From assembly GCF_008086165.1 (NCBI RefSeq), contig NZ_VSKL01000005.1, positions 186,001 to 250,000 of the forward strand: DNA of 64,000 nt, in the 5' to 3' direction. The DNA is from Algorimicrobium algoritergicola (GTDB lineage: Bacteria > Bacteroidota > Bacteroidia > Flavobacteriales > Flavobacteriaceae). Shown here piece by piece: positions 29,360-46,716 of this stretch. The notes beneath the pieces were generated by a model that saw only the letters and a list, made by a program, of their open reading frames with translations, made no database searches and was not told where the DNA came from. Both the position numbers and the translations under genes were made by a program. The stretch's first letter is position 1, and each line of letters opens with the position of its first letter.

Positions 29360-31363
29360 TTACACCTTCAATTTCTCCAGCTTTTCCTGATACCCTTTTA
29401 TCAAATCCCTGAATTGAGCCGCTTCCAAGAAATCTAAAGCTTTGGCAGCTTGTTCCATCATTTTTCGGTTTTCACGAATTTTCTTTTCCAAGGCACCTTT
29501 AGTCAAATATTGACTTTCTGGTTCGGCAGCTTTGGCAGCCTCCAATGCGTAGCTGTATGTACTAACGGAGTTTTTAGTTAAGGCGTTGTCCAAACTTTTA
29601 TTCAATGCTGTTGGTACTAAATTATGTTTGGTGTTGTAGGCTATTTGTTTTTCGCGTCTGTATTCGGTTTCATCAATCGTTTTTTGCATACTTTTGGTTA
29701 TTCTATCGGCATACATAATGGCTTTTCCGTTGAGGTTTCGTGCTGCACGACCAACCGTTTGTGTTAATGAGCGCGCTGAACGTAAAAAACCTTCCTTATC
29801 GGCATCCAAAATAGCGACTAATGATACTTCGGGTAAATCCAATCCTTCGCGAAGCAAATTGACACCAACCAATACATCAAACAAGCCTTTTCGTAAATCT
29901 TGCATAATTTCAACACGTTCCAACGTATCCACATCACTATGAATATAGCGACACCGAATTTGAATCCGATCTAGATATTTGGTCAATTCTTCAGCCATAC
30001 GTTTGGTTAATGTGGTGACTAAAGTTCGTTCGTCTTTTTCAATTCGCAGATGGATTTCTTCAATTAAATCATCAATTTGATTTAGGCTTGGTCGCACTTC
30101 AATGACGGGATCTAATAATCCTGTTGGTCGAATAATTTGCTCGACAAAAACGCCATCAGATTTTTCCAATTCATAATCAGCAGGTGTGGCACTCACATAA
30201 ATAACCTGATTTTGAAGGGCTTCAAATTCTTCAAATTTCAATGGTCGGTTATCCATAGCAGCTGGCAAACGGAAACCGTAATCTACTAAATTTACTTTTC
30301 TACTAAAGTCGCCTCCATACATGGCATGCACTTGCGAAATGGTTACGTGACTTTCATCTACGACCATTAAAAAATCGTCTGGAAAATAATCCAATAAACA
30401 GAAGGGTCTGGTGCCTGGTTGTCTGCCATCCAAATAGCGTGAATAGTTTTCAATACCTGAACAGTAACCCAATTCCCGAATCATTTCCAAGTCGAATTCC
30501 GTGCGTTCCTTTAAGCGTTTGGCTTCAAGATGCTTGCCAATTTCTTTAAAATAATCATATTGTTTTACCAAGTCGTCCTGAATACTTTTTATAGCACCTT
30601 GCAACACATCTGGAGATGTTACAAACATATTGGCTGGATAAATATTGAGTCTGTCGTATTTTTCTAAAACTTCATTGGTTTGGACGTTGAAGGCTTCAAT
30701 CTCTTCAATTTCATCACCAAAAAAGTGAATTCTAAAGGCATGATCGTCATAACTTGGGAACACATCAACCGTATCACCTTTTATTCGGAAATTTCCATGA
30801 TTAAATTCGCCTTCTGTTCTAGAATATAAACTCTGTACTAAACGGTGTAATAATTTGGTACGTGAAATAACCTGATCACGTTCAATAGAAATGACATTCT
30901 TCTGAAATTCCACAGGATTTCCAATACCATATAAACAGGAAACGGACGCGATAACAATCACATCACGACGACCTGAAAGTAGGGAAGAGGTGGTGCTTAA
31001 TCGCATTTTTTCGATTTCCTCGTTTATAGATAAATCCTTTTCTATATAAACACCCGAAACAGGAATATAGGCTTCCGGTTGGTAATAATCATAGTAAGAA
31101 ACGAAGTATTCTACAGCATTTTCAGGGAAAAATTGTTTGAATTCCGAGTACAATTGTGCAGCCAAGGTTTTGTTATGCGCTAAAACCAAGGTTGGCTTTT
31201 GAACCTCTTCAATAACATTGGCAACGGTAAATGTTTTTCCTGAACCTGTAACCCCTAAAAGGGTCTGATATTTTTCTTGTGAATCAATACCTGCAACCAA
31301 CTTTTTAATCGCTTGAGGTTGATCACCTGTTGGTTTAAATTCGGATTTTATTTTGAATTTCAT
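29360..31363 (-). CDS. uvrB: Excinuclease ABC subunit B
   Basis: This 667-residue protein has UvrB's usual length and motifs: helicase motif I GVTGSGKT (~residues 39-46), the beta-hairpin YYDYYQPEAYIP, motif II DESHVT, motif III VSATP. Motif V/VI blocks are LLREGLDLPEVSLVAILDADKEG and QTVGRAARN. The C-terminal UVR domain (ALEKKIRENRKMMEQAAKALDFLEAAQFRD) mediates UvrC contact. UvrB verifies damaged DNA in nucleotide excision repair together with UvrA and UvrC. It is transcribed alone and shows nothing unusual. Confidence 0.98.
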   Translation of the reverse strand: MKFKIKSEFKPTGDQPQAIKKLVAGIDSQEKYQTLLGVTGSGKTFTVANVIEEVQKPTLVLAHNKTLAAQLYSEFKQFFPENAVEYFVSYYDYYQPEAYIPVSGVYIEKDLSINEEIEKMRLSTTSSLLSGRRDVIVIASVSCLYGIGNPVEFQKNVISIERDQVISRTKLLHRLVQSLYSRTEGEFNHGNFRIKGDTVDVFPSYDDHAFRIHFFGDEIEEIEAFNVQTNEVLEKYDRLNIYPANMFVTSPDVLQGAIKSIQDDLVKQYDYFKEIGKHLEAKRLKERTEFDLEMIRELGYCSGIENYSRYLDGRQPGTRPFCLLDYFPDDFLMVVDESHVTISQVHAMYGGDFSRKVNLVDYGFRLPAAMDNRPLKFEEFEALQNQVIYVSATPADYELEKSDGVFVEQIIRPTGLLDPVIEVRPSLNQIDDLIEEIHLRIEKDERTLVTTLTKRMAEELTKYLDRIQIRCRYIHSDVDTLERVEIMQDLRKGLFDVLVGVNLLREGLDLPEVSLVAILDADKEGFLRSARSLTQTVGRAARNLNGKAIMYADRITKSMQKTIDETEYRREKQIAYNTKHNLVPTALNKSLDNALTKNSVSTYSYALEAAKAAEPESQYLTKGALEKKIRENRKMMEQAAKALDFLEAAQFRDLIKGYQEKLEKLKV

Positions 31364-31484: not shown

Positions 31485-34088
31485 CTAGCGTTTAAGCGTA
31501 AAGTGACCGTTCAGTTGTTCGCCAGTTCGTAAGGTTATAACATACCAATAATCGTTGCTTTCTTTTGGGTAGCCTCTGTATAAACCATCCCAACTTTTAG
31601 ATTGCAATGGAATCTGTTTTAAAAGCTTGCCATATCTGTCATAAACATAAATCTCTTTAATGGTGTTTTGCGTGTCCGTTATTTGCCAAACATCATTTTC
31701 GCCATCATTATTTGGTGTGAAAAATAATGGAATGTGAATAGATACTGCTGTTTCTATTTCAAACTGAATCGATTTTAGAACACAGCCATTTATATCTTGA
31801 ACGTATAATGTATGTGTCCCATTTGAAAGACCGGAAAATACAGGACTAGACTGGAAGCTACCGTTGTCTATCGCGTATTCATATGAAATACTGGAGTCTG
31901 TCATGTTTACCGTTATAGTGTTGTCAACGATTGTAATATTTGAAAGTGTTAAATCGAAATCAATGAATGTTCCAGATATTTCCCATGTACATGTTGTATT
32001 ATTGAAAGTGGCAATTTCCCAACATTCTAAACTTGGTTGTATTGGTTGTGTTCCAGAAATTTCCCAAGCACAAGTTGTGGTATTGAAAGTTGCATTTTCC
32101 CAACATTCTAAACTTGGTTGTATTGGTTGCGTTCCATTTACTTCCCAAGTACAAGTTGTGGTATTGAAAGTTGCAATTTCCCAGCATTCTAACCCAGTCG
32201 GCATCGGGTCTTGTGTTCCCGTTATTTCCCAAGTACATGTTGCGTTATTGAATGATGCATTTTCCCAGCATTCTAAACTTGGTTGTATTGGTTGTGTTCC
32301 ATTTACTTCCCATGTACAAGTTGTGTTATTGAAAGTTGCAATTTCCCAACACTCTAAACCCGTTGGCATCGGGTCTTGAGTTCCAGTAACTTCCCAAGCA
32401 CAAGTTGCACTATTGAAAGTTGCAATTTCCCAACATTCTAAATTTGGTTGAGTTGGTTGTGTTCCATTTACTTCCCAAGCACAAGTTGTGGTATTGAAAG
32501 TTGCATTTTCCCAACATTCTAAACTTGGTTGTATTGGTTGCGTTCCATTTACTTCCCAAGTACAAGTTGTGGTATTGAAAGTTGCAATTTCCCAGCATTC
32601 TAACCCAGTCGGCATCGGGTCTTGTGTTCCCGTTATTTCCCAAGTACATGTTGCGTTATTGAATGATGCATTTTCCCAGCATTCTAAACTTGGTTGTATT
32701 GGTTGTGTTCCATTTACTTCCCATGTACAAGTTGTGTTATTGAAAGTTGCAATTTCCCAACACTCTAAACCCGTTGGCATCGGGTCTTGAGTTCCCGTTA
32801 TTTCCCATGTACATGTTGTATTATTGAATGATGCATTTTCCCAGCATTCTAGACTTGGTTGAGCTGGTTGTGTCCCAGTTATTTCCCAAGCACAAGTTGC
32901 GTTATTAAATGTTGCCGTTTCCCAACACTCCACTGATGGGGCCGTAGTTATATTGTTAATTATTAAATGCGTGGCATCTGTAACAAGATTACAAGTAGTA
33001 GATGTTATTTCGCAATAATATTGGTTGTTATCAAAACTAATGGGCACATTGTTTAAGCTTAATGTATTGGTAGTTGCACCAGAATATGTCGCATTATCAA
33101 CAACATTTACCCAAACACCAGAATTATTTAATATTTTCCATTGATATGTGTACGTTCCTGTAGCAACAGAAACCGTAAATAATGCATTTCCATTTTCACA
33201 AATGGTTTGCCAATCTGGTTGTGTAATAACTGGAATAGTAGTTGTCGTAATAGGATCAGCTGTATGAGAACCTAAATCAGAACACGTTTCATTAAGATCT
33301 GTAACCCAATCTGAAGGAACAAATGTGTTATTTGGAACAACAGCATCTGGATTTCTAATAATGCTGTAACCACGTTCGTTTGGTGCCTCAACCACATCTA
33401 TTACAGTACCATTTTTTAATAGTTTAAATTCATCGTTATCATTTATTCCGGTTCCAACAGTAAAATCGGCAACTAAAGTTGGACAATCGGAACCACCTCC
33501 TAATAAAATAATAAATGTATCTAAAGGCGCTATCGTACCTAACATAGCATAGGTATGACTTGGTGTTGGATTTCCAATATCACCATAACGATCAATGACA
33601 TAAACACCATCTAAAACAATAGGCGTGCTTGTTGGGTTATAAAGTTCTATAACTGCGTAACTTCCAGAAAACGCATCATAAATTTCTGATATATAAATAT
33701 CGCCTGTATCTGTACAACTTGGTTGAATAAACGCAAAATCGGTTGTCGAGTTTCCTACGCATCCGCCAGAACTCGAAATGGAAATTGTAGCACTGGTATT
33801 TAATGCAGATGCGGCATATGCTGTTATTTGATTATCATTAATTATTGTGAAAGCAGCAGTTACGCCATTAAAGGATACATCTACCGCATTGTTGAAATTA
33901 CTACCATTAATAGTTATTAAAGTGTTTTCTGGGCCACTTGTTGGCGAGAAAGCTGAAATTACCGGTGCAGGGCACGGATTATTATGAGTGCTTTCAGTGT
34001 TTGAATGATTTACGTTTATAAATGCAAAACTAAATTTGCTAATAAATAATAAACAGAAAAAGAAAGGGATAAGTTTTGGTTGTTTCAT
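31485..34088 (-). CDS. T9SS type B secreted protein with 12 tandem ECWE repeats
   Basis: This ~867-residue protein from the ATG at 34088 has a signal peptide (KLIPFFFCLLFISKFSFAF). Domains in order are: IPT/TIG-like (PAPVISAFSPTSGPENTLITI), lamin-tail-like (~130-270, IYISEIYDAFSGSYAVIELYN), an Ig-like domain (PDWQTICENGNALFTV), 12 ECWE repeats (~385-710, two Cys and two Trp per unit), a short PKD/SprB-like strand region, and a ~80-residue T9SS type B tail (FFTPNNDGENDVWQI, YDRYGKLLKQI, GHFTLKR). It is presumably exported to the surface as an adhesin-type protein. No enzymatic motif is seen. It is the last gene of the five-gene T9SS block. Confidence 0.92.
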   Translation of the reverse strand: MKQPKLIPFFFCLLFISKFSFAFINVNHSNTESTHNNPCPAPVISAFSPTSGPENTLITINGSNFNNAVDVSFNGVTAAFTIINDNQITAYAASALNTSATISISSSGGCVGNSTTDFAFIQPSCTDTGDIYISEIYDAFSGSYAVIELYNPTSTPIVLDGVYVIDRYGDIGNPTPSHTYAMLGTIAPLDTFIILLGGGSDCPTLVADFTVGTGINDNDEFKLLKNGTVIDVVEAPNERGYSIIRNPDAVVPNNTFVPSDWVTDLNETCSDLGSHTADPITTTTIPVITQPDWQTICENGNALFTVSVATGTYTYQWKILNNSGVWVNVVDNATYSGATTNTLSLNNVPISFDNNQYYCEITSTTCNLVTDATHLIINNITTAPSVECWETATFNNATCAWEITGTQPAQPSLECWENASFNNTTCTWEITGTQDPMPTGLECWEIATFNNTTCTWEVNGTQPIQPSLECWENASFNNATCTWEITGTQDPMPTGLECWEIATFNTTTCTWEVNGTQPIQPSLECWENATFNTTTCAWEVNGTQPTQPNLECWEIATFNSATCAWEVTGTQDPMPTGLECWEIATFNNTTCTWEVNGTQPIQPSLECWENASFNNATCTWEITGTQDPMPTGLECWEIATFNTTTCTWEVNGTQPIQPSLECWENATFNTTTCAWEISGTQPIQPSLECWEIATFNNTTCTWEISGTFIDFDLTLSNITIVDNTITVNMTDSSISYEYAIDNGSFQSSPVFSGLSNGTHTLYVQDINGCVLKSIQFEIETAVSIHIPLFFTPNNDGENDVWQITDTQNTIKEIYVYDRYGKLLKQIPLQSKSWDGLYRGYPKESNDYWYVITLRTGEQLNGHFTLKR
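32061..32384 (-). repeat. 324-bp perfect direct repeat, copy A
   Basis: This 324-bp segment is identical by eye, base for base, to 32472-32795. The offset is 411 bp (137 codons, in frame), which is five ECWE units. The flanks diverge at once on both sides. Such perfect identity inside a tandem array means a recent duplication or gene conversion. Confidence 0.92.
32472..32795 (-). repeat. 324-bp perfect direct repeat, copy B
   Basis: This is the second copy of the 324-bp segment at 32061-32384, 411 bp further along and in the same reading frame. Recombination between the copies would delete or add 137 codons without a frameshift. Confidence 0.92.
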
Positions 34089-34155
34089 GGGAAAAAATAG
34101 TAGCAACCAAAAGTAAGAAATTTTTATATACTGAAAGATTAAATGTATGTTACGA

Positions 34156-36483
34156 TTATCTTACCAATGAAAAATGACCTAGATATTCTTTGCCATTGGG
34201 AAGTACAGCGCGATACCAATAATCATCCGAACCTAATTGTTGACCTTTATACGTGCCATTCCAACCTGAATTAGAAGCATTTATTTGTTTGATAAGTTTT
34301 CCATACCGATCAAAAATACTGATTTGTAATTTGTTGGTTTTCGTGTTTACGCCAAGTGGTTTCCAGACATCATTCATGCCATCGCCATTTGGTGTGAAAA
34401 ATTTAGGAAAACCAAGAACCGAAACATCTTGTGAAACTGATCCACATTCATTGATATCATTTACGGTTATTGTATGAACTCCAGCCGAAACATTTGTGAA
34501 GGTTGGGCTATTTTGGAATGTTCCAGAATCTAAAGCATATTCATAAGTGCCTTCTCCAGAAACAAAAACGGTAATGGTATTGTTTGATGATGCATCCACA
34601 ACTACAATGTCATCTATTGTCGGGATGTTAGATGGTAGAACTTCAATGTTTCTAATTGAAGTACATTGGTTCGTGTTTGTAACAAATACGGTATAAACCC
34701 CAGTTTCATTAATCGCTATTTGATTTGTGTTCAAATTCAAGTCCAAGCCATTTAAATCCCAGCTGTATGTAAAATTACTAGGATTCTGCTGAACACCGGA
34801 ATTTATAAAAACTGTATTTGGAAACTCATTTAAACAGTAAAAGATGCTTTCATCAGGAATTAATTCTGGTGCATCAAAAACTTGCAACGCTAAAGTTGTA
34901 AACGCATAACAATTTCCGTTATCTCTTATTTGAACAAAAAGTGTGACGGAATTAGGGCTGTTCGTGTTTTCATAAGTTCCAGAAACTTCATTGGTTTGAT
35001 TTTCCATATCTGTTTGCGTTTCAAAAAACGAAACAGAAGCGGTGTTTGGAACATCCGGTTGCGAAATAACATAAGATTCTAATTCAGAAATATCAAAATT
35101 AATAATACCATCAAAATCGGTATCACAACTTGTAAAAGGTGCTAAATTAACTGGGTTATTTGCAATATCTAGAATAATTTCGGCAACTGAAATGCAACCA
35201 TTAGAATTGGTAATACGTGCGTAAACTGTTTCTAATATACTGGTGTTGTTGTAATTAGATGGGTTTGTAATAAGTCCGTTTCCAGTTTGTTCTGCACCTA
35301 TAAAAGTGTTGTAAAAACTATCTGCTGACAATTGAGTGTCACCATTGGTAATGGTGGTTTCAGCATCAAATAAATTATATGTTGTAAAGCCATTTAAATC
35401 CAAATCACAAGCAATTAAAGTGGTATTTGAAACGATAGGATCTGGCGCATATTCAATCGTAACCTTACCAGTACTGAAGCACGTTCCATCAATATTTACT
35501 TCCACCGCATAATTGCCTGGTTGTGTTACGGTAAATGTAGCGTTGGTTTCAGTTAGGAGTTCTGTGCCGTTTCTGAACCATTTATACATATTGTTTCCTG
35601 GTTGAAAGGCATCTAATTGAACACTTTCATCAGCACAAAGCGCTGTATTTTGGGCAATTAATAAATCTGGACCTAAATTAGAACTTAATTGAAAACTGCC
35701 AGCTTCTAAATATACAGCAGAATCATACCGGTAATTTTGCTCATCTGAAATAACCAGCTTTACATGATACGTTGTATTCGGAATCACATCGGCAACAGCT
35801 GTTAATACTTCTGTTTGACCATTAAAATTTATGGGAGCTGTTGGGCCGTTCCAACCGCCAAAATATTGTTCGTTAATAGGATTACAACTGCCTGGAATTC
35901 CTGAATGTACGGTTGTTACTTTTATAGGTGTTCTGGTATTTGGAACAACAGCAATATTGGTGTAACGCGTTTCATTTACTGGTCGGATTAGGAAACCGAA
36001 TAAATCAGAATAACGACACGTATTTGGATCCCCTTGCTGATATTCCTCCGAAGCAAAAATATAACGAAAGCTAATTTGATCTGCAATGGCTTCAAATTCA
36101 AACTCTAAAATGGTGGCATTGATTGTATTGGATTCGTTTAAAGCACTTTCTAAATCAGTATCACCTATCCAATTAGGTGCAGTATCATCACTTAAGGACG
36201 TATTGGGACCTGCAGTGTTTTGTAAACGCCCTGTCGACATAACAATACCACTTTGAAATGGAAAACTGGAACCATTGGCTTCAAAATAGCCGTAGCTTAA
36301 ATCCGATCCATTAAAATTTCCGCTCACAGCATTGGTTACAACCACATTGGAAATACAATCGCTATCAATTAACACATCTTCAATAAGTTCTTGAGGTGTA
36401 TACGCGAAAGCATCAGCAGTCACATTTTGAGACCATGACATGAGTGACCATAAACAGGCCATTATAAAAAGGGCATTTTTCAT
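34156..36483 (-). CDS. T9SS type B secreted protein with choice-of-anchor-L domain
   Basis: This ~775-residue protein from the ATG at 36483 has a signal peptide (MKNALFIMACLWSLMSWSQ). It has a choice-of-anchor-L domain (~30-265): SFPFQSGIVMSTG, DTDLESALN, ISFRYIFASEEYQQG, and the later AVYLEAGSF. An Ig-like domain follows, then two acidic modules starting CDLDLNG and CDTDFDG with YNNTS...VYARITN-type endings, a PKD-like stretch, and a type B sorting tail (FFTPNGDGMNDVWKP, FDRYGKLIKQI, YWYRAVL, GHFSLVR). It is probably a surface-exposed adhesin or matrix protein. It is neighboured by larger paralogs of the same architecture. Confidence 0.9.
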   Translation of the reverse strand: MKNALFIMACLWSLMSWSQNVTADAFAYTPQELIEDVLIDSDCISNVVVTNAVSGNFNGSDLSYGYFEANGSSFPFQSGIVMSTGRLQNTAGPNTSLSDDTAPNWIGDTDLESALNESNTINATILEFEFEAIADQISFRYIFASEEYQQGDPNTCRYSDLFGFLIRPVNETRYTNIAVVPNTRTPIKVTTVHSGIPGSCNPINEQYFGGWNGPTAPINFNGQTEVLTAVADVIPNTTYHVKLVISDEQNYRYDSAVYLEAGSFQLSSNLGPDLLIAQNTALCADESVQLDAFQPGNNMYKWFRNGTELLTETNATFTVTQPGNYAVEVNIDGTCFSTGKVTIEYAPDPIVSNTTLIACDLDLNGFTTYNLFDAETTITNGDTQLSADSFYNTFIGAEQTGNGLITNPSNYNNTSILETVYARITNSNGCISVAEIILDIANNPVNLAPFTSCDTDFDGIINFDISELESYVISQPDVPNTASVSFFETQTDMENQTNEVSGTYENTNSPNSVTLFVQIRDNGNCYAFTTLALQVFDAPELIPDESIFYCLNEFPNTVFINSGVQQNPSNFTYSWDLNGLDLNLNTNQIAINETGVYTVFVTNTNQCTSIRNIEVLPSNIPTIDDIVVVDASSNNTITVFVSGEGTYEYALDSGTFQNSPTFTNVSAGVHTITVNDINECGSVSQDVSVLGFPKFFTPNGDGMNDVWKPLGVNTKTNKLQISIFDRYGKLIKQINASNSGWNGTYKGQQLGSDDYWYRAVLPNGKEYLGHFSLVR

Positions 36484-36576
36484 TCCTAGCAATTGGATTG
36501 CAAAGATACGTAATAAGAATTTTTATAAAGCAAAAGCATGGGTTGCTTTTTATAGAGAATTATAATAATTTATGAA

Positions 36577-39500
36577 TTAGCGTTTTAGGGTGAAATGGCG
36601 TTTTACTTCAAAAGAAATAGCGCCTTTTTTGACTTTTGCTAAAAACCAGTAATCGCTTGAAGGCATATTTTGCCCATTATAAGTACCATCCCAACCAGAA
36701 GATGTATGTCCTAAAGTTTTAAGAAGTTTTCCATAGCGATCAAAAATGTAAACAATTGTTCCGGGAATTTGATTAATTCCTGTAATATGCCAGGTGTCAT
36801 TTTGTCCATCCTGATTGGGTGTAAAAAAGAGTGGTGCATCAATGATTACAATTTCTTTAATTGCCGATGCGCACCCATTTAAATCATACACTTCAATAGT
36901 ATGTGGGCCCAAGGTTACATTATAAAATACATTAGAAGATTGAGGAACGCCATTGTCTAAAATATACATGTAATTACCAATTCCACTTATGGTGACCGTA
37001 ATATTGTTAGGGTTTGAAAAATCGATTGTTTCTGTAAAATCTATAGTAGCTTGTTCAGATTCTATAACATTGAATGTTACTGATGTGGTACAACCATAAT
37101 CCGACCTAACGGTTACAGAATAGCTTCCTATTTGGGTGATTTCAATTTCGGGAGTTGCTGCATTGGTAGACCATAAATACGTATCGGTATCAAATCCTGT
37201 TTCAGCTGAAACAACTAAAGGTAAATTATCTAAACAAACCGTCTGGTCTGGAATTTCAACAAAAGGTTTTCTTTGAACCAAAGTTAAAAAACTAGTTGCC
37301 GCAAAACACCCTGTGGTATTGTTTTGAACACGTACATAAATAGTTTGATCATGAAACGCATTGTAATTTAAATCTGTAATGGGATTTTCATTTTCTAATG
37401 CTTCAATTTCTAGTTCAAAATAGGTCACGGTAAAATTAGCTGGATTTTGACCACCTAAAATTGTGTTTGTTTGTTGTGATAAATCGAAAATACGCATCCC
37501 ATCAAAATCATCATCACAAGCCTCTAAATTTGTAGGTGTGACTGCTGTAGGGTTTGGATTTACCAATAGCGTGAATGAACTTATTGCAAAACAATTTGTA
37601 AGTGTATTTTCAGCACGCACATGAATGGTGTCGTTATTAGAACCATAATTGTAATTACTATCTAATGGGTTTTGTCCTGATTCAGCATCGGTTTGAGAGG
37701 CATAAAACGTAACAGCTACATTGGGTTGTGTATCAATTAAACTCGTGATGGTTTCATTTAAATCAAACATATTATCAACAGCATCACAGGTGTTATAATC
37801 CGTTATTGGGTTTATGGTTGGTGGTAAATTCACTTCCAAGTCCAATGGTACCATTACATAACATTCTGAAACGGTATTGGTTACACGAATATACACGGTT
37901 TGTGGATTTTCAATATTTTCATAAGCATCTGGATTAGGAATGTTATTAATATTCGCTTCCAAATCGGCTAAATTTTCATGATAGGTCACTAAAATATCGT
38001 TTTGTCTGATTTCCAATACTTCAAGTTCTGCAACTGTTAAGTCGAATGTTGTAGATCCATCATAATCGGTATCACATGCGGTCATAAGCGAAGCCTGGTT
38101 TACATTTGGAACCTGGATAACATTCAAGCCAAATTCAGCAATACCATGGCAATAGGTGCCATTTTCTATCCGTGAATAAATCTGTTGTGGATTACTTTGG
38201 TTGGTGTAATTTAAAGCGATTGGATTTTCAGCGCTTTCAGCATCTTCTAGACTTTCATAAAACGTGATGGTTAAATTATCTGTACTACCCAGACTCATGG
38301 CAGCTTGAATTTCGGCTAAATCAAAAGATTCCTGTGCATCATTAGAAATATCATCACATAAAAAGGTGTCTAAAGGTGGATTAAAAATTGGAACAGAACC
38401 GACTTCAATAAAAAAGGTGCTTACACCAAAGCAACTGGTGTCACTGATATTTTCAACACGAATATGAATACGTTGCGGATTAGTCAGGTTTTCATAAACA
38501 GTTGTTTTATCAATTATATTGGTTCTGTTAATGGCATCATTTGGATCTTCAAAATATAAAACCCGTTTTCCAGTTTGTCCATTTAAGATATCCGCATCCT
38601 TTTCTTGGAATATAAATTCTGCAATTTGATTACCATCGGTTTCACAGTTATTGAAGTCGGCAATTGTAGTAAAAACAGGTAAGGTATTAACGACAATGTC
38701 GAAATTTTCAATAGCAAAACATCCGGTGGTTATACGCTCCACTCTAGAAAACACGGTTTGTGTATCTGCGTTATAAGCATCGGTATTTGTAATTCGGTTT
38801 GTATTGGATTCGGCATCCATTAATGATGTATGAAACGTGATATTTAAACCTTCGGTAGCTGCTACAATTTCTGGAATTTTAGCATCTAAATTAATAAGCG
38901 TAAAGGCATCCTGATCATCATCACAAATAATTTCATTACTAGGCTGTGTGGTTGTTGGTGCTGGTAACACTTCAATTTCTAAAGTGGCAATATCATAACA
39001 ACCCGTATTACCATTTCTAACACGAACAAATACTTCAAAAGGATTGCTGGTATTGTTATAAAAAGGCGGTAATGCATTCACATTATCCGTGGCATCATCT
39101 TCCGTTTGAAAATAGCTAACCTCTGCATTTGGAATTCCTGAACTTACATAGGTATTGAAACTAAATAAATCTACCGATGTCATGGCGTCATCATCCGTAT
39201 CGCAATAGGTTACGGGAACTAAAGTTGGCAATATGGTTGCTGGATGAATAATAAGTTCTATTTCCGAATCAACCGAACAACTAGTACCTATAATTGTAAT
39301 GAACAATGTGAAAGGTGTTTCTGTAACTTCATACGGAACGGCTTGGTCAATGGCATTATTTCCAGCAGTTTGATCAGCTTCTGTTTCATAAAAAGCAACG
39401 GTAACATCTAATAGCCCATTAATAATGGTTGTTGCAATATTCTCTAGGTTAAAATTGACTATACCATCATTAGATGCATCATCACAGCGCGAAAAATTTC

Positions 39501-41406
39501 TAATATTACTTTCATTAAGGAGTAAATTAGCGTGTAATTCTATAGTAGCAATAGAGGGGCAACCTGTAATATTATCTACTACTCGAATATAAATGACTTG
39601 AAATTCAGGCGTTGTGTTTGTGTAATTATTGATATCTGCAATGGGATTATCACCCGTTTGAGCATCTTCATAGGTTGTATGAAATGTGGTTGTTACGTTG
39701 GTTACTCCATTTAAAACATCGTCAATAATTGTTGTTAAGTCAAAATCTTCAAACCCATCATCGTCTTGTTCACAAGCGTCTATGGTGTGTGAGGCATTAT
39801 CAATAGCAGGACTATCAAGAACCGTAACATCTAAAGTTGTTGTGCTTCTACATCCAGTAGCCGTATCCAAAACACTCACGAAAAGCTGATCGTTCAGAGT
39901 GGTGTTTGAGTAGGGTTCAGGTACAGGATTTGCACCGGATTCCGCATCTGTTTGATTGTAATGATATGTTACCGCATAGCCTGGATTTCCTCCAGTAATT
40001 TCAGTGTCTTTTACGGTTAGGTCTATTAGTGTAAATCCATCTCCATTACCATCGTCACATACTTCTAAAAGCGTTGGAGGTGTAATGGTTGGTACAGGAT
40101 TAACAATAAGATTAAAGGTACCGAAAGCCAAACAACCATTATCAGTATCTAAAATCCGTACATAAATAGTTTGCGGATTTGCTGAATTTTGAAACGGTGC
40201 TACAATTGGAAAACTACCATCTTGAGCGCTGTTAGAATTAAAATGATAAGTAATGTTGTAATTTCCTATCGGAACTGCCGCAAGTACATCAGCATCTTTT
40301 ATAGAAACATCAAACAGATAAAAACCATCATTACTTGGATCATCACAAACTACAAAATCTGAAATAGCATCAGCAGACTGTTCAGAGCTTAATGTAATTG
40401 TTACGGTATCTTCAATTTCGCAAATGGTGCTATTGATAGGAATAGAAATAGAGACCGTATAGATTCCAGAATTGTTAACGGTTAATGTTGGATCTGTTTC
40501 ACCAGGTATTGGTGTTCCATTTTCCAACCAAACATAGGTTGCTAGTGGATTTTGAATATCCCCATTTAAAATGACACTATCCGCACAGGTTGTAATGTCT
40601 GTACCTAAATTAACGGTTGAATTAAAACTATTTCCTTGAATAAAAACAGCCGAATCAAAATTTTCATCTTCTTGATCGGCAATCACTAATTTAATATGAT
40701 ACTGGACGTTGGGTTCAATGTTAGCAGATGCTGTAAGAATAGTTGTGCGACCATTAAAATTAGTGTCGCCTAAATTATAACCTTCAAAATATTGTTCGTT
40801 TTCAGCAGGGCAAAATCCAACAACTTCCTCATGAATAGTACTCGTATTTACAGCTGTATCTGTTCCCGGAATTAAAGCAACATTTATATAAGGATTTGTT
40901 GTGCCGGCTTCTTTAATTAGGAACGCAAAGCCATCAGAATACTCGCAAGGATAATTAGCAAAATATTCTTCGGAAGCTAGAATGTAATTGAACTGAACTT
41001 GGTTTGAAACAGAAATAAAATCGAATTCTATAGATGTGGCATTTAGCGTATTCGTAATTCCTAGGGCAGTTTCTAAATCAGAATCTGTAAGCCAATCTAC
41101 TTCACCGTCATTTAAAGGGTTTGCATTAATAGTATTTCCAGCTGAAACGGCCGCTCCAGTTGATAATACAATTCCGTTCTCAAAAGGAAAAGTGGAATTT
41201 GCACGCTCAAAATAACCAAAACTATTTATACTATTTACGGAGCCGTTTATAACGGATTGCACATTAGAAATCTCTACACAACCATCAATTAAACGGTCCT
41301 CTATAAGTTGCTGTGCTGTAAACGTATCATTTATAGATATTTGTTGTGCATAGCTATTATTGATTAAAGCTACTAATAGTGAGGTGAATAAGAAGATTTT
41401 CTTCAT
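36577..41406 (-). CDS. Giant T9SS type B secreted protein with 11 acidic modules
   Basis: This 1609-residue protein has a signal peptide (KIFLFTSLLVALINNSYAQ) and a choice-of-anchor-L domain (~25-265, including FNYILASEEYF and SAVFIQGNSF). An Ig-like domain follows, then 11 consecutive modules of ~85-90 residues. Each module starts with an acidic Cys motif such as CDDDFDG or CDTDYDG, then FDL, a V(T)YH/FY strand, and a PQ.IYVRV.N...GC ending. The DxDxDG-like loops suggest calcium binding. A further Ig-like domain and a type B tail (FFTPNQDGQNDTWHI, FDRYGKLLKTL, DYWFLAKV, HFTLKR) close the protein. It is the largest gene of the block and likely forms a long extracellular fibre. Confidence 0.92.
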   Translation of the reverse strand: MKKIFLFTSLLVALINNSYAQQISINDTFTAQQLIEDRLIDGCVEISNVQSVINGSVNSINSFGYFERANSTFPFENGIVLSTGAAVSAGNTINANPLNDGEVDWLTDSDLETALGITNTLNATSIEFDFISVSNQVQFNYILASEEYFANYPCEYSDGFAFLIKEAGTTNPYINVALIPGTDTAVNTSTIHEEVVGFCPAENEQYFEGYNLGDTNFNGRTTILTASANIEPNVQYHIKLVIADQEDENFDSAVFIQGNSFNSTVNLGTDITTCADSVILNGDIQNPLATYVWLENGTPIPGETDPTLTVNNSGIYTVSISIPINSTICEIEDTVTITLSSEQSADAISDFVVCDDPSNDGFYLFDVSIKDADVLAAVPIGNYNITYHFNSNSAQDGSFPIVAPFQNSANPQTIYVRILDTDNGCLAFGTFNLIVNPVPTITPPTLLEVCDDGNGDGFTLIDLTVKDTEITGGNPGYAVTYHYNQTDAESGANPVPEPYSNTTLNDQLFVSVLDTATGCRSTTTLDVTVLDSPAIDNASHTIDACEQDDDGFEDFDLTTIIDDVLNGVTNVTTTFHTTYEDAQTGDNPIADINNYTNTTPEFQVIYIRVVDNITGCPSIATIELHANLLLNESNIRNFSRCDDASNDGIVNFNLENIATTIINGLLDVTVAFYETEADQTAGNNAIDQAVPYEVTETPFTLFITIIGTSCSVDSEIELIIHPATILPTLVPVTYCDTDDDAMTSVDLFSFNTYVSSGIPNAEVSYFQTEDDATDNVNALPPFYNNTSNPFEVFVRVRNGNTGCYDIATLEIEVLPAPTTTQPSNEIICDDDQDAFTLINLDAKIPEIVAATEGLNITFHTSLMDAESNTNRITNTDAYNADTQTVFSRVERITTGCFAIENFDIVVNTLPVFTTIADFNNCETDGNQIAEFIFQEKDADILNGQTGKRVLYFEDPNDAINRTNIIDKTTVYENLTNPQRIHIRVENISDTSCFGVSTFFIEVGSVPIFNPPLDTFLCDDISNDAQESFDLAEIQAAMSLGSTDNLTITFYESLEDAESAENPIALNYTNQSNPQQIYSRIENGTYCHGIAEFGLNVIQVPNVNQASLMTACDTDYDGSTTFDLTVAELEVLEIRQNDILVTYHENLADLEANINNIPNPDAYENIENPQTVYIRVTNTVSECYVMVPLDLEVNLPPTINPITDYNTCDAVDNMFDLNETITSLIDTQPNVAVTFYASQTDAESGQNPLDSNYNYGSNNDTIHVRAENTLTNCFAISSFTLLVNPNPTAVTPTNLEACDDDFDGMRIFDLSQQTNTILGGQNPANFTVTYFELEIEALENENPITDLNYNAFHDQTIYVRVQNNTTGCFAATSFLTLVQRKPFVEIPDQTVCLDNLPLVVSAETGFDTDTYLWSTNAATPEIEITQIGSYSVTVRSDYGCTTSVTFNVIESEQATIDFTETIDFSNPNNITVTISGIGNYMYILDNGVPQSSNVFYNVTLGPHTIEVYDLNGCASAIKEIVIIDAPLFFTPNQDGQNDTWHITGINQIPGTIVYIFDRYGKLLKTLGHTSSGWDGTYNGQNMPSSDYWFLAKVKKGAISFEVKRHFTLKR

Positions 41407-41450
41407 TTTTTTATTTCAGGTTGTCACTAACAGATTTGGGGCTAGCAAAA

Positions 41451-41458
41451 CAAATGTA
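41451..41458 (-). promoter_or_regulatory. Promoter -7 element of the giant T9SS gene
   Basis: CAAATGTA on the plus strand reads TACATTTG on the minus strand, an exact TAnnTTTG element. The ATG of the 1609-residue gene follows about 45 bp downstream, at 41406. No clear TTTG element is visible at the -33 distance. It suggests that the block has at least one internal start of transcription. Confidence 0.4.
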
Positions 41459-41514
41459 ACAAAATAATCAGATGAAGCGCTAATTTTATCGTTTAAATGC
41501 AAATATAAATATAT

Positions 41515-43359
41515 TTAGTAGTTGACATAGACCCAACCTGTCATATTCTCATAACTGGAATCATTTAAATAGAGTACATAAAAATAGGTGCCAACCGGCA
41601 CTAAATTTCCTTGATTTGTTATGCCTTTATTGGATTTTCCATCCCATGGCAAATCATTATTTCCTTCAAAAATTAGCGTTCCCCAACGGTTATAGATTAA
41701 CAGTTTGTGATTCTCAAAAATAGTGTAAAGCCCTTGAATATTAAACCAATCGTTAAATCCATCATGGTTTGGTGTAAAGACTTGGGGAATATAAGGCGGA
41801 CAATTTTTTACACTAACAATAAATTTATAAAAATTAAAGCAGAAATCCGTATTTACACGAATAAAAATTTCTTGAGGAGACGTGTCGTTGTCAAAATATT
41901 CAGGAATTAATATTTGGTTTTCCTGATTAAACAAGTCATTTTCCGCTTCATAATAACTTACATCTTCAAGAGAGTCATAATCAACAAATTGAAGTTGTTC
42001 GGTTAAATTGAAGGTTGCTTTATTAAATCCAATATCGCAAGCTTCTAAAGGTTGTAGTTGTGTAACTTCAGGAATAGGTAATAATGTAACACCTTCTGTT
42101 GTCGTGTTATTTAATTCGTTTAATTCGGTAACAATGCCAGTTCCATTTCCTACATCATCAATTACAATTTGAAGCGTAAAACTATCAGGAATAATGTCGG
42201 GAATGTTAATGGTTATTGATTGTGTTTCAAAACCATCTATGGGGATTATGTCTAGTGTTTCACTTTGAGCCACTAAAAAACCATCTGCGTAAAAGGCAAT
42301 AGGCGTGGCAGCTGGTAAAATTTCGGTAGAATTACTATTGTAAGCAGTAAAATCTATAGTAACATTTCTGGTGGCACATTCTAAAAGATACGTGTTTAAA
42401 ACAACCGTAGCATCTGGCAGCTGACTGTTTAATACCGTAATCATGTTATTCAAAATTATGAGATCAGCTTGTAGATTACCAAATTCATCAAGATCACCCG
42501 TTGTTAATTTAATTTCAACGGAATTATCGCCAATGGCAATATTATTTTCAATGTTGTACACATCTAAATCACCATTGTAAAACGTGTTACTTCCCGTAAA
42601 GGAGTTTGTACCGTTAAAGGCATTGTTCGCTGGATTTAAAGGTGGGTTTGAAAGGACATTGTTATTAATTAAAAGCGATTCGCCATAATTTAAATTCGCA
42701 TCGCCTTCCCAAGCTAAAAAGCCAATTTTTGCGCCTTCATTATCTAATACATTAATGTTGTCCAATAAAATGGTTTTTTCTTGAACATTTCTGCTAATAA
42801 TCTCCAACCCTTGGAACAGGTTTATTTGATTAAGCGGTAGGTTTGTGTTTTCATAAATAATGTAAATACTCCAACCAGCAAAATTAGTCCGGTTGTTACA
42901 GTAGCCATCATTGGTGGTTAAAATGTCTGAAATATCAAGATCTGAAAACGTGTACATACTATTTCCAGCTGTAAGAATATAATCTGTAATGTCTGTATAG
43001 CTGGAAAAATAGGTGAGGAGGCCGTAATTTGGATCGTTATAATCTACCAAATAGGTGTTGTCCGCAATAAACGGATTTCCATTTAAACTGACTTCGGTAT
43101 CGCCACTTCCGGACCCAGCCCAATATAAATAGGCTGCTATAATATTCCAGTCGGGATTTAGCGTTAACTCGGCTTCGGATGCTGGTAAAATTTCACAAAA
43201 ACTTCGGTCTAAATTATTTTCAGACGGATTGAGCGTATTACCTATTGCTAAATAATCATACCGACCATTAAATTGCTGAAATAGTGATATTTCTTGACTG
43301 CATGCCACAGAGGTAGCAATACAGCAAATGAATACTATAATTTTCTTTAACTGAAACAT
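41515..43359 (-). CDS. T9SS type B secreted protein with one acidic module
   Basis: This 614-residue protein has a signal peptide (IIVFICCIATSVACS). Residues ~20-310 form a unique domain (YLAIGNTLNPSENNLDRSFCEI, AAYLYWAGSGSGDTEVSLNGNPF, and NFAGWSIYIIYEN) that resembles DUF3344-type beta-rich ectodomains. Residues ~310-430 look like a CARDB/Ig-like domain (LLECATRNVTIDFTAYNSNS). One acidic module (CDIGFNKATFNLTE...FIRVNTDFC) follows. The type B tail differs slightly from its neighbours (VFTPNHDGFNDWFNIQGL, YNRWGTLIFEG) and ends WVYVNY instead of FTLKR. The adaptor for export should still be T9SS. Confidence 0.88.
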   Translation of the reverse strand: MFQLKKIIVFICCIATSVACSQEISLFQQFNGRYDYLAIGNTLNPSENNLDRSFCEILPASEAELTLNPDWNIIAAYLYWAGSGSGDTEVSLNGNPFIADNTYLVDYNDPNYGLLTYFSSYTDITDYILTAGNSMYTFSDLDISDILTTNDGYCNNRTNFAGWSIYIIYENTNLPLNQINLFQGLEIISRNVQEKTILLDNINVLDNEGAKIGFLAWEGDANLNYGESLLINNNVLSNPPLNPANNAFNGTNSFTGSNTFYNGDLDVYNIENNIAIGDNSVEIKLTTGDLDEFGNLQADLIILNNMITVLNSQLPDATVVLNTYLLECATRNVTIDFTAYNSNSTEILPAATPIAFYADGFLVAQSETLDIIPIDGFETQSITINIPDIIPDSFTLQIVIDDVGNGTGIVTELNELNNTTTEGVTLLPIPEVTQLQPLEACDIGFNKATFNLTEQLQFVDYDSLEDVSYYEAENDLFNQENQILIPEYFDNDTSPQEIFIRVNTDFCFNFYKFIVSVKNCPPYIPQVFTPNHDGFNDWFNIQGLYTIFENHKLLIYNRWGTLIFEGNNDLPWDGKSNKGITNQGNLVPVGTYFYVLYLNDSSYENMTGWVYVNY

Positions 43360-43398
43360 AGAAAGGTGTTACAGTTTTAAATGTACGATTTTTTACTG

Positions 43399-46300
43399 TT
43401 AACGCTTTAAGGTAAAATGACTTTTAAAAATACGACCATCTTGTAGTTTTACTGAAAACCAATAATCGTCATTTGGCATAAATTGACCATTATAAGTTCC
43501 GTCCCAGCCACCATTTAATGGGCTTAACTCTTTTAATAATTTTCCATAGCGGTTAAAAATCTGAACACGTGTACTTGGTTGAAACATGGCCGTAACACCT
43601 TGAACATTCCAAGTATCATTGGTGCCATCGCCATTTGGTGTAAACACATTAGGAAAACCTATAACGGAAACCATATCCTCAATAATACCACAATTGTTTT
43701 TAACGTCGCGAATGCTAACGGTATAAATTCCTGGATCAACATTGGTGAATTCATTGCTTGTTTGATAAAATGAATAAAGTGCTCCAGTGGCATCAAAAAG
43801 AGCGAATTCGTATTCACCTTCACCTGAAACAATAACCGTTATGGTATTGTTACTATGAAGTGCATCTTGAATAGTAATGGTTTCAATTGTTGCAATATTG
43901 GAAGGTTCAACAGTAATAGAACGCATTTTTGTACAACCAAATGCATTGGTAGCTGTAACTGTATAGGTGCCAACTTCATTTACAGCAATACTATTTGTGG
44001 TTTGACCAGAAGTCCACGAATAGGTATAATTGTTAGCCGAATCATTTAAAATACCTGCATCCAAAGTAATTGTATCGGGAAAGGTGTTTAAACAATATAA
44101 TACGGTTTCATCTGCCTCCAATTGAGGTCTTGGGTTAATGGTAAGTGAAACTTCACCAATACCATAACACGCATTGTTATTTTCTACACGTGAATATAGT
44201 GTTTGGTTATAAGGTATGGTGTTATTAAATGGTGTTGATAACGCATTTTGCTCTAATAAAGCATCATTATAATTTTCATAATAAGTTACTGGAAATGTAA
44301 TGGTATTGTCTTGCTGAATAGCTGTAGTTATAGCGTTTAAATCGAAGGTGTTAATACCATCTTCAGAATCTAATTCATCACAAACATCAGGCACTTGATA
44401 ATTACTTATTTGGGTGGTGCTAACTTCTAGTGATACATCAGCCAAACTGTAACAAAGGGTTGTATTATCAATAATTTTCGCGATAACTATTTCTGGATTG
44501 GCCGTATTAATATAACCTAAAGGGTCTAACATGTCTGTGGCAGAATCTGCATCTATTTCATTGTCATAATATTCTATAGAAACCGTTGTGGAATTTCCTG
44601 ATAAGGCATCAAAAGCTTCATCTAGATTAAAGCTGGTTCTACCATCGTTATTGCCATCTACATCACATTGAATCAAGCTACTATTGAAAGCAGGTGGTAA
44701 CGGGTTTATAATTACAACAAAGGATGTTGTACTATAACAATCTGTGTTTAACACATTTTCCACGCGCACAAAAATTTCTTCTTGAAAGGCTGTTTGGTTG
44801 TAATAACTGTTAGGAAGTGGACTCATTCCAGATTCCGCGTTTGCCAGCGAGGCATGATAACTAACGGCGAAATCTGCAGGATTTTGAGTGTCTAATACCA
44901 AAGCGTTAAAATCTAACAAATCAATTTCTGATTGACCGTTGGATGGGTTTCCGTCCGTGGCATCATCACACCAAGTTTGATTATCAATTACGTTAGCAGT
45001 TGGTGTTATAAACACTTCCGCTAAAAATGATGTGGTATCATAACAATTCGGATTGTTTTTATTTTGAATTCGAGCAAATATAGGTGTTGGATTTATTGTG
45101 TTGGTAAACAAACCAGTTATCTCATTTTCGTTATTATCAGCATCTATTTGCGATTCAAAATAGTAAATAGCAAAAACACTAGCGTCTTGAGTTCCTAAAA
45201 TAGCTGCATCACGATCGGTTAAATCAAAGTCTGTAGTTAAATCATCACTGCAGGCATTTAATTTTAGTGCTGTATTGGCGACAGGAATATCATAAAATGT
45301 TACAATGGCTTGGCCTTCTTTCGACTCACAATCATTGCTAGGGATTTCTATAAAAACCGAGTAATCACCTCCCGTATTTAAAAACAATTCATTTGGAGGA
45401 GTTGGTGTTGGAATTGGGTTGTTGTCCAATGTCCACGTGTATGTTGCTCCTGGAATATCTTCTGCAATTAATGTAAAAGTATCGCCTGTACACAGTAATA
45501 AATTATTGGCTTCAGCAACACCATTAGTAATATCAATTTTTTCTGTAAAAAACGATGCAATAAAAGGCGGTAAACCTTGAGTTGAATTATTAGTGCCTAA
45601 TGAAACGGCATTGTGTTGGTAATTAGCATCAGTACCAAGCATATTTGGATTATTAATGACACTTAAAAAAGGCAGACCACGAGAATAAGTTTCTGCCATA
45701 GATCTATATATTTTACCATCTGGACCCAATTGCAACGCACTTCGGTAAGCGTTTCGGTTGTCCAAAACAAGTGCCGAACCACCAATATCAGCAGCTGTTA
45801 AGTCAAATTGTATAAGTTTGGATTGATGAGAATTGGGATTATTGTCACCTCCACCAAAAAAATCATTAGAAGCGGTTACGTATAAAATTTGGCTGTTTGG
45901 TGAAAATTCAGCACCATAAGGCTGATTATTATTTCCAGAAATTGGTATAAGTTCATTGTTACTCATTGTACCCGTTGAAACATCAAAATCGAAAAGGTAT
46001 AAACCATCATCTACATTAGCCAAAGCTACTTTTGTACCATCTGGTGATAATTTAAGATAGCCTCGTGCATCACCAAGATTCATCGGACTAAAAGTGGATG
46101 TTACAGCCGTTGTATTGACGCCAGCGTCTGTAATTTCGAACGCATGAAAGGTATCTAAATCTGCAGTAGCGGGATTATTGAATGCGCCTTGAAGGTTCGA
46201 AAAAGTAATAACCCAAATGGCACCCGTTTGACAATCTTTTAAAACTGCGGCAATTTTTTCAGCACATTGTGCTAGGAGATTAACGTTTTTTAAGGTTATT

Positions 46301-46716
46301 GCTCCACGACCAGAATCCAAAGTTATATCAACAATGGAATACTTTAATCCAGTAAAAGACTGATTGGAACCAACAGTAAAAATATAGTATATATTTGTGT
46401 CGTCTGGTTTTGGTACAACAATAGCCGATTGGGAACTTGATAAATCACCTAATAATCCGGTACCATTTACCATAATATTATGTTCACTATTATAAACTAG
46501 TGAGCCATCCGTATAGAATAATAAATTTCCGTCGCCATCTGATATGGAGGAGCAACCTTCAACCGTGTTAAGTTGACCATCATCTAAAGCGGTAATAGTA
46601 CCATCTTCTGCAAATTGAATTCCAGCATTTTCGCCAAAATACCAATTGGCAGCTTCCCGTTGACTATAAGCACCAACAAAACACAGTAAAAACGTATAAA
46701 AGAGTAATTTTTTCAT
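43399..46716 (-). CDS. T9SS type B secreted protein with beta-propeller-like N-terminus and four acidic modules
   Basis: This 1105-residue protein has a signal peptide (LLFYTFLLCFVGAYS). About residues 20-390 resemble a WD40/PQQ-type propeller: ANWYFGENAGIQF, GDGNLLFYTDGSLVYN, LKLSPDGTKVALAN, YGAEFSPNSQILYVT. An Ig-like domain (CTGDTFTLIAEDIPGATYTW) follows, then four acidic modules (ACSDDLTTDFDL, CDDATDGN, CDVDGNNDG, CDELDSEDG). A second Ig-like domain and a type B tail (VFTPNGDGTNDTWNV, FNRYGKLLKEL, DYWFSVKL, HFTLKR) end the protein. It heads the T9SS block, 26 bp downstream of the ABC permease gene, so the transporter and the secreted proteins may share a transcript. Confidence 0.9.
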   Translation of the reverse strand: MKKLLFYTFLLCFVGAYSQREAANWYFGENAGIQFAEDGTITALDDGQLNTVEGCSSISDGDGNLLFYTDGSLVYNSEHNIMVNGTGLLGDLSSSQSAIVVPKPDDTNIYYIFTVGSNQSFTGLKYSIVDITLDSGRGAITLKNVNLLAQCAEKIAAVLKDCQTGAIWVITFSNLQGAFNNPATADLDTFHAFEITDAGVNTTAVTSTFSPMNLGDARGYLKLSPDGTKVALANVDDGLYLFDFDVSTGTMSNNELIPISGNNNQPYGAEFSPNSQILYVTASNDFFGGGDNNPNSHQSKLIQFDLTAADIGGSALVLDNRNAYRSALQLGPDGKIYRSMAETYSRGLPFLSVINNPNMLGTDANYQHNAVSLGTNNSTQGLPPFIASFFTEKIDITNGVAEANNLLLCTGDTFTLIAEDIPGATYTWTLDNNPIPTPTPPNELFLNTGGDYSVFIEIPSNDCESKEGQAIVTFYDIPVANTALKLNACSDDLTTDFDLTDRDAAILGTQDASVFAIYYFESQIDADNNENEITGLFTNTINPTPIFARIQNKNNPNCYDTTSFLAEVFITPTANVIDNQTWCDDATDGNPSNGQSEIDLLDFNALVLDTQNPADFAVSYHASLANAESGMSPLPNSYYNQTAFQEEIFVRVENVLNTDCYSTTSFVVIINPLPPAFNSSLIQCDVDGNNDGRTSFNLDEAFDALSGNSTTVSIEYYDNEIDADSATDMLDPLGYINTANPEIVIAKIIDNTTLCYSLADVSLEVSTTQISNYQVPDVCDELDSEDGINTFDLNAITTAIQQDNTITFPVTYYENYNDALLEQNALSTPFNNTIPYNQTLYSRVENNNACYGIGEVSLTINPRPQLEADETVLYCLNTFPDTITLDAGILNDSANNYTYSWTSGQTTNSIAVNEVGTYTVTATNAFGCTKMRSITVEPSNIATIETITIQDALHSNNTITVIVSGEGEYEFALFDATGALYSFYQTSNEFTNVDPGIYTVSIRDVKNNCGIIEDMVSVIGFPNVFTPNGDGTNDTWNVQGVTAMFQPSTRVQIFNRYGKLLKELSPLNGGWDGTYNGQFMPNDDYWFSVKLQDGRIFKSHFTLKR

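Follow-up and report, generated by a model that had tools for sequence, protein, structure and literature searches.

A shared module with near-invariant copy number in adjacent type B proteins of Algorimicrobium algoritergicola, and a candidate shuttle for their export

The stretch of 64,000 nucleotides of the Algorimicrobium algoritergicola genome analysed here (NCBI RefSeq assembly GCF_008086165.1, contig NZ_VSKL01000005.1, positions 186,001 to 250,000; hereafter the window, whose numbering is used for all cluster coordinates) contains five adjacent genes, P1 to P5, that fill positions 31485-46716, all on the minus strand. Their products end in type B sorting domains of the type IX secretion system (T9SS), and four of them carry copies of one module. 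The locus raises the questions of what these proteins are built for, how their module numbers arose and are kept, and by which route they reach the cell surface. We consider it probable, though far from settled, that they are old, conserved, length-controlled surface stalks of immunoglobulin-like (Ig-like) modules, delivered by a shared orphan shuttle. Each protein would leave the cell via the T9SS, with its sorting domain handing it to the shared shuttle; on the surface it would form a string of Ig-like modules of set length, each closed by a disulfide, and the choice-of-anchor L domain of P2 and P3 would sit at the far end as binding domain. Module number would set stalk length, P3 being long and P2, P4 and P5 shorter. 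The cluster itself brings no shuttle, and the shared one is most likely a protein of the PorP/SprF type encoded on another contig (C11). Type B surface proteins of Ig-like repeats are ordinary; the unnamed module, its near-invariant count in three genes over many genera, and the shared-shuttle signature are unusual.

Module identity and protein architecture

P1 (31485..34106; 873 codons from TTG, 867 from ATG) comprises TIG, LTD and ECWE repeats and no module; P2 (34156..36492; 778 codons from TTG, 775 from ATG) comprises two modules and an Ig-like tail; P3 (36577..41406; 1609 codons) comprises 11 modules, P4 (41515..43359; 614 codons) one, and P5 (43399..46716; 1105 codons) four modules behind an N-terminal domain without a family name. 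The cut-off of 35 bits of the NCBIfam type B profile TIGR04131 is exceeded at the C-terminus of all five, i.e. in P1 (31488-31736, 99.6 bits), P2 (34159-34413, 109.7 bits), P3 (36580-36843, 112 bits), P4 (41530-41790, 47.5 bits) and P5 (43402-43662, 115.3 bits), and all five tails are CHU_C in Pfam, which bears out the reading of the locus, in an earlier note made from the sequence, as five co-oriented genes with type B tails. The sorting domain of P4 is unlike those of its neighbours (51 bits with TIGR04131 in a second scan, against 105-121 for P1, P2, P3 and P5), and P4 may depend on a different shuttle. The choice-of-anchor L profile NF038133 (cut-off 27 bits) matches two of the five proteins only, P2 (35692-36324, 153 bits) and P3 (40624-41304, 147 bits), and in both the match ends upstream of the modules. 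A literature search returned nothing on 'choice-of-anchor L', and no title or abstract start among the best matches listed describes the cluster or the module.

A profile built from the 11 P3 modules found four modules in P5 (E ≤7.3e-15), two in P2 (E ≤9.2e-13) and one in P4 (E 6.9e-10; E-values for the five sequences), and none in P1; the top non-module match had an E-value of 0.048. When the profile was rebuilt from all 18 modules, the same 18 were retained through three rounds. The counts of 11, 4, 2 and 1 given in the earlier note are therefore exact and far above chance. The module length, put there at about 85-90 residues, is 85-97 residues, and two cysteines are invariant in 18 of the 18 copies. 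The module is indeed shared by four of the five cluster genes, but the genome holds 33 copies in seven genes. These include an orphan type B gene of 2657 residues (L027 2177-10150; G000:C25:72000-84000) with 10 modules (mean internal identity 35%, best pair 58%), and a protein of 1258 residues (L028 4924-8700) with four modules and a type A sorting domain at its end, so that the module is not restricted to type B proteins.

In the Pfam test that the earlier note had suggested, as in NCBIfam, no family matched more than one of the 18 members at E ≤1 (best single E-value 0.0011 in Pfam and 0.016 in NCBIfam); PHROGs gave one weak match to one of the 18 modules (E 0.009), and a PDB sequence search gave just a nucleoplasmin-like chain (E 0.3-0.4). 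A known domain at normal copy number is ruled out by the lack of a Pfam or NCBIfam family. The data thus support a single module that recurs in proteins with export tails for the surface and has no name in Pfam or NCBIfam.

Module number across genera

The module was surveyed in 249 genomes of the family and in a phylum-wide draw of 395 genomes. It is present in all six genomes of the window genus and in 218 of the 249 family genomes, yet it matches nothing in Pfam or NCBIfam; in the phylum-wide draw it was found in 53 genomes, 45 of them of the same order. P3 regions were taken from the five other genomes of the genus and from 59 more genomes of the family, the best of 96 with a match to the N-terminal domain of P3. 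Exactly 11 modules are present in 61 of 69 complete P3-type open reading frames (ORFs; 62 loci), 60 of which span 1597-1653 residues and one (L025) 1477 residues; the other eight hold 17, 14, 9, 7, 7, 6, 4 and 0 modules, the last three being pieces. Counted per locus, an 11-module copy occurs in 57 of 62, from 52 genera (the window genus and 51 others), and whole-gene tandem copies of P3 (L096, L098, L107) likewise hold 11. P2-type genes have two modules in 28 of 29 cases, and ten genomes of one further genus (g127) each have one P2-type gene of 762-784 residues with two modules; P4-type genes have one module in 26 of 28. Among 50 P5-type genes, which form a looser class with shorter paralogues among them, 24 have four modules, 17 have two, seven have one, and single genes have six and nine. 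The earlier note called for a comparison of counts between strains; between the genomes compared here, the counts are nearly constant for the P3, P2 and P4 types, and less so for P5. In the metagenome-derived genome of locus L025 (7368-18103), a second P3 copy lies in pieces of 6 and 5 modules and P2 is split, which may be frameshift error or decay.

The modules are also conserved position by position. In 32,017 of 33,880 comparisons across 56 loci, the best match of a P3 module in another genome was its positional counterpart, where one in 11 would be expected. In a module tree (126 modules, seven genomes), 16 of the 18 positions each fell on one side of a branch (exceptions, P2.2 and P5.1). 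Near-frozen counts and grouping by position place the amplification before the sampled members. The earlier proposal of amplification within the genes, taken as a recent event, is not upheld by these counts or by the module tree, and a recent amplification in this genome is ruled out by the position-wise orthology. One further candidate event, the replacement of P2 module 2 in this genus by a copy of P3 module 4, was seen in the first tree and disappeared once all 28 P2.2 rows were included.

Sixty 11-module proteins have a mean internal identity of 28% and no internal pair above 47%. Closer pairs, at 81 and 86% identity, occur in longer variants of 14 and 17 modules, and at 58% in a third (17 modules, cut by the end of the stretch); later duplications thus happen and leave a visible mark, yet 11 persists. 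That the length of the stalk is under selection is a fair inference from these data rather than proof, and it stays unproven because P3 has scarcely any DNA repeats left on which recombination could act. Two points tell against it: the P3 regions were selected for similarity to its N-terminal domain, a choice biased towards true P3 orthologues, and the constant 11 could stem from missing DNA similarity instead of selection.

The latter point leads to the first of two alternatives that survive about equally well, a possibility that we rate below our preferred reading: the constant count is a passive fossil of modules that diverged early, with no DNA similarity, hence no recombination, and no constraint on length. 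It fits the internal identity of P3 and the near-absence of DNA repeats within the gene, and P3-type ORFs with 7, 9, 14 and 17 modules do exist. Against it, module genes that lie next to the shuttle gene in genomes of the same family range from 2 to 16 modules despite low internal identity (27-42% for those with at least five modules; these genes need not be orthologues of one another), and the loss of a single module would require no recombination between modules. This difference, i.e. 11 modules fixed in P3 against 2 to 16 in other genes with the same module, provides a natural contrast for testing selection on stalk length under the reading of the proteins as length-controlled stalks.

A more far-reaching version of that reading, which we regard as doubtful, would make P3 a molecular ruler: an 11-unit, disulfide-stapled Ig-like stalk whose length is selected family-wide and whose building block is common to predatory grappling hooks. 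The proteins that display it would form a second class of type B proteins, defined by a single orphan shuttle with many module clients and distinct from the SprB/SprF gliding pair.

Type B tails and the orphan shuttle

The genome contains 11 type B tails over the cut-off (one further TIGR04131 match, below the cut-off and in a frame of 57 codons, was dropped) and six PorP/SprF genes. Five of the PorP/SprF genes directly adjoin five type B genes, none of which carries the module; a gene of 3216 residues with an adjacent PorP/SprF is separate from the cluster and has no module. P1-P5 and the 2657-residue gene, the other six type B genes, are orphans with no shuttle nearby, and five of the six carry modules. 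The sixth PorP/SprF gene (C11:1133533-1134531) is likewise an orphan, with no type B gene within the 14 kb fetched around it. In 65 cluster loci, a profile made from the six PorP/SprF genes of this genome detected no PorP/SprF among 562 ORFs (best E 0.0094); a weaker blastp search of the same loci also found none, and it recovers just five of the genome's six known ones.

Co-occurrence was examined in a draw of 149 genomes (133 module-positive, 16 module-negative), with E ≤1e-60 as the line for a shuttle orthologue. An orthologue of the C11 shuttle is present in 124 of the 133 module-positive genomes and in one of the 16 module-negative ones; counted by the N-terminal domain of P2/P3 instead, the figures are 92 of 98 and 33 of 51. 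Some PorP/SprF is matched more weakly in 13 of the 16 negatives, so that the contrast is not just loss of the whole system; two negatives match none. Gene order supports the shuttle link independently of co-occurrence. Among all 20 single-contig genomes of the 149 that have the shuttle, taken unselected, a gene with module and type B domain ends 4-12 bp before the shuttle gene in six (shuttle identity 42-71%); one such gene lies 1.6 kb off, and one adjacent type B gene has no detected module. In 12 further regions, half of them chosen because their coordinates hinted at nearness, five such genes were adjacent, one lay within 1.6 kb and six did not. Finally, a profile of the P1-P5 sorting domains gave 86-112 bits for foreign shuttle-adjacent genes and 110 bits for the 2657-residue gene, against 38-68 bits for the tails of the genome that belong to other shuttles.

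Several observations weigh against delivery by this shuttle. The co-occurrence figures are inflated by relatedness and lose significance when it is taken into account: a uvrB tree built for 31 genomes (the 16 negatives, 14 positives picked by the author, and the window genome) gave five supported independent pairs, with 2-4 concordant and no discordant cases (median p 0.25). The line at 1e-60 is arbitrary, and the module-negative genome G021 falls at 3.6e-56; at this threshold nine of the 133 module-positive genomes have no shuttle, the negative genome G012 has one, and genome G264, of another family of the order, has modules with a shuttle match of only 4.3e-17. No module gene is present in the stretch by the shuttle in 12 of the 20 single-contig genomes (in two of them a type B gene with a lower score lies at a greater distance). 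Since P1-P5 served to train the sorting-domain profile, their own scores are circular, and only the foreign genes, the 2657-residue gene and the other tails count; a tree of the 11 tails did not resolve; further points against are the divergent sorting domain of P4 and the four modules in a type A protein.

A precedent for such an arrangement is available in Flavobacterium johnsoniae, where three orphan type B proteins (Fjoh_1123, Fjoh_1720 and Fjoh_4934) were shown to share the orphan shuttle Fjoh_1677 (PMC12618676). These proteins resemble the present ones in having a type B domain, no adjacent PorP/SprF and one orphan PorP/SprF in the genome, and differ in that here five orphans lie in one cluster; the likeness is drawn from the description and not from sequences. 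With the shuttle link, the pairing of orphan clients with a shuttle, an open question of the T9SS, becomes directly testable in genera beyond F. johnsoniae.

The same work bears on the second alternative, for which we see some, though limited, room: that, instead of forming static stalks, the proteins act as mobile adhesins in gliding, as SprB does. Adhesion is the role usually inferred for type B proteins (PMC12618676), and SprB of F. johnsoniae is likewise a type B surface protein of large size and repetitive sequence (PMC9143113). SprB chimeras with the sorting domain of Fjoh_1123, a client of Fjoh_1677, moved on a helical track in 3% of cells, and substrates that move have been linked to having no PorE-like gene next to them; most foci in that precedent, however, were static (PMC12618676). 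In addition, the C11 shuttle is likened to Fjoh_1677 by its orphan status only, and SprB has its own adjacent SprF (PMC9143113), in contrast to the 65 loci with the window-type cluster. Set against our reading of the proteins as stalks, a gliding role appears about as tentative as the passive-fossil explanation, and the stalks may serve adhesion or gliding.

Two observations concern the surroundings of the orphan shuttle gene. The gene that follows it (L133 7766-9931) encodes 721 residues with weak histidine-kinase-like and other matches, and is perhaps a regulator; relatives of it lie close to the shuttle in many of the other genera examined. The shuttle gene also often starts about 100 bases from a contig end (G034:C6:105, G134:C10:104, G145:C5:98), as if a repeat-rich giant gene upstream had broken the assembly.

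Fold, acidic loop and module history

A single module, P3.11 (37267..37536), was modelled by AlphaFold with a mean predicted local distance difference test (pLDDT) of 95.6 and a predicted template modelling (pTM) score of 0.84; structure prediction of the modules had been proposed in the earlier note. The fold is probably an Ig-like beta-sandwich. In this model the acidic loop sits between two strands, a known setting of Dx[DN]xDG calcium loops (PMC3123361). The eight top structural matches of the module are to GhpA, the grappling-hook protein of Aureispira (PDB 9fly, 9flx and others), with a Z lead of just 0.5 to 1.1 over unrelated Ig domains (5.9); no profile match to GhpA was found up to E 10. 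GhpA comprises 5,898 residues and is heptameric (PMC13319060). An AlphaFold model of whole P2 (7 sequences) reached a pTM of 0.38, with most of the N-terminal domain below a pLDDT of 50; its residues 351-694 have a generic resemblance to strings of animal Ig domains, with GhpA not among the best 50 matches listed. The poor model shows neither a stalk geometry nor the packing of neighbouring modules nor the choice-of-anchor L fold, which counts against the stalk as a shape.

The strict motif Dx[DN]xDG occurs in five of the 18 modules, i.e. in P2.2 (34870..35145), P3.02 (39811..40077), P3.09 (37822..38094), P3.11 and P5.3 (44413..44685), where 1000 shuffles gave a mean of 0.11 (maximum 2), and nowhere outside the modules in the five proteins; it is absent or altered in the other 13, and the likeness to known calcium loops is one of sequence and model. 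The spacing C[DNE]x[DNE]x[DN] and the cysteine pair were scored per position among orthologues (28 for P2, 56 for P3, 26 for P4 and 24 for P5). The spacing is common at P2.1 (35155..35427; 27/28), P3.03 (39520..39792; 50/56), P3.05 (38959..39222; 45/56), P3.06 (38680..38943; 48/56), P3.07 (38392..38664; 34/56), P3.09 (49/56), P3.11 (46/56) and P5.1 (45004..45270; 14/24, with a degenerate loop in the window genome itself), and rare at P2.2 (9/28), P3.01 (40093..40365; 5/56), P3.02 (3/56), P3.04 (39238..39504; 18/56), P3.08 (38110..38376; 7/56), P3.10 (37552..37806; 3/56, loop shortened), P4 (41800..42057; 0/26, loop degenerate), P5.2 (44698..44988; 6/24), P5.3 (4/24) and P5.4 (44128..44397; 0/24). 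Several of the latter positions do have an acidic loop in a longer form; at P3.10 and P4, even a loose loop pattern is limited to 16 of 56 and seven of 26 sequences. The acidic start CD.D.DG of the earlier note is thus present in some copies, and that spacing is a minority form.

The cysteine pair, in contrast, is kept in all or all but one or two sequences at 15 of the 18 positions, and in 52 of 56, 19 of 24 and 19 of 24 sequences at P3.02, P5.1 and P5.2. Each module probably contains one disulfide between its two conserved cysteines; as the pair is kept more widely than the loop, the disulfide would be the more general staple, and calcium would matter in some modules at most. Calcium may be bound by a subset of modules, judging from their loops; the idea of calcium stiffening as a general principle is weakened by P3.10 and P4, which are mostly loop-less with the cysteines kept.

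The explanation that the module was amplified within each gene after gene duplication, and that acidic loops bind calcium and so stiffen the arrays into fibres, is unlikely, given the near-frozen counts, the grouping of modules by position and the loss of the loop in most orthologues at P3.10 and P4. It is supported by the enrichment of strict loops and by the looser [DN]x[DN]x[DN]G, which a majority of orthologues retain at P2.1 (25/28) and at P3.03 (34/56), P3.05 (41), P3.06 (42), P3.09 (47) and P3.11 (41). Identity within P3 is slightly higher than between genes (29.0 against 25.7, 23.4 and 27.0), but it is not higher within P2 (19.3, against 25.7 to P3) or P5 (25.4, against 27.0 to P3). 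In a denser tree with all 28 P2.2 rows, P2.1 stood beside P5.3 (support 98/83) and P2.2 beside P5.4 (98/91), a pairing that would place a two-module unit before the split of the P2 and P5 genes; in a second tree P2.1 with P5.3 reached just 70/53, and P2.2 with P5.4 was absent from the best tree and not rejected (p-AU 0.338). Approximately unbiased (AU) tests did not reject a single clade for the modules of P3, P5 or P2 (p-AU 0.129, 0.105 and 0.27), and did not fix the order of module and gene duplications.

As for the cluster as a whole, the named organism closest to it in the P3 locus is Bizionia echini, with 88% in the best-matching segment. Co-orientation holds in every one of the 60 loci whose P3 has at least nine modules. 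The gene uvrB (29360..31363) lies next to the cluster, downstream and on the same strand, and does so in 49 of the 60 P3 loci with a median gap of 46 bp; the remaining 11 fetched stretches hold no uvrB. In four of the five other members of the genus (L021, L023, L024, L025), an extra module gene of 787-825 residues with one or four modules lies between P4 and P5 (43359-43399) or nearby; the window genome is without it. In P1, the ECWE repeats (31969-32925) have a unit of 81/84 nt, and two stretches of 300 nt are 95% identical in DNA, which suggests that they were amplified recently, unlike the frozen modules of P3. Genes of the P1 type vary in length, with 1056 (L023), 906 (L066) and 818 residues (L074).

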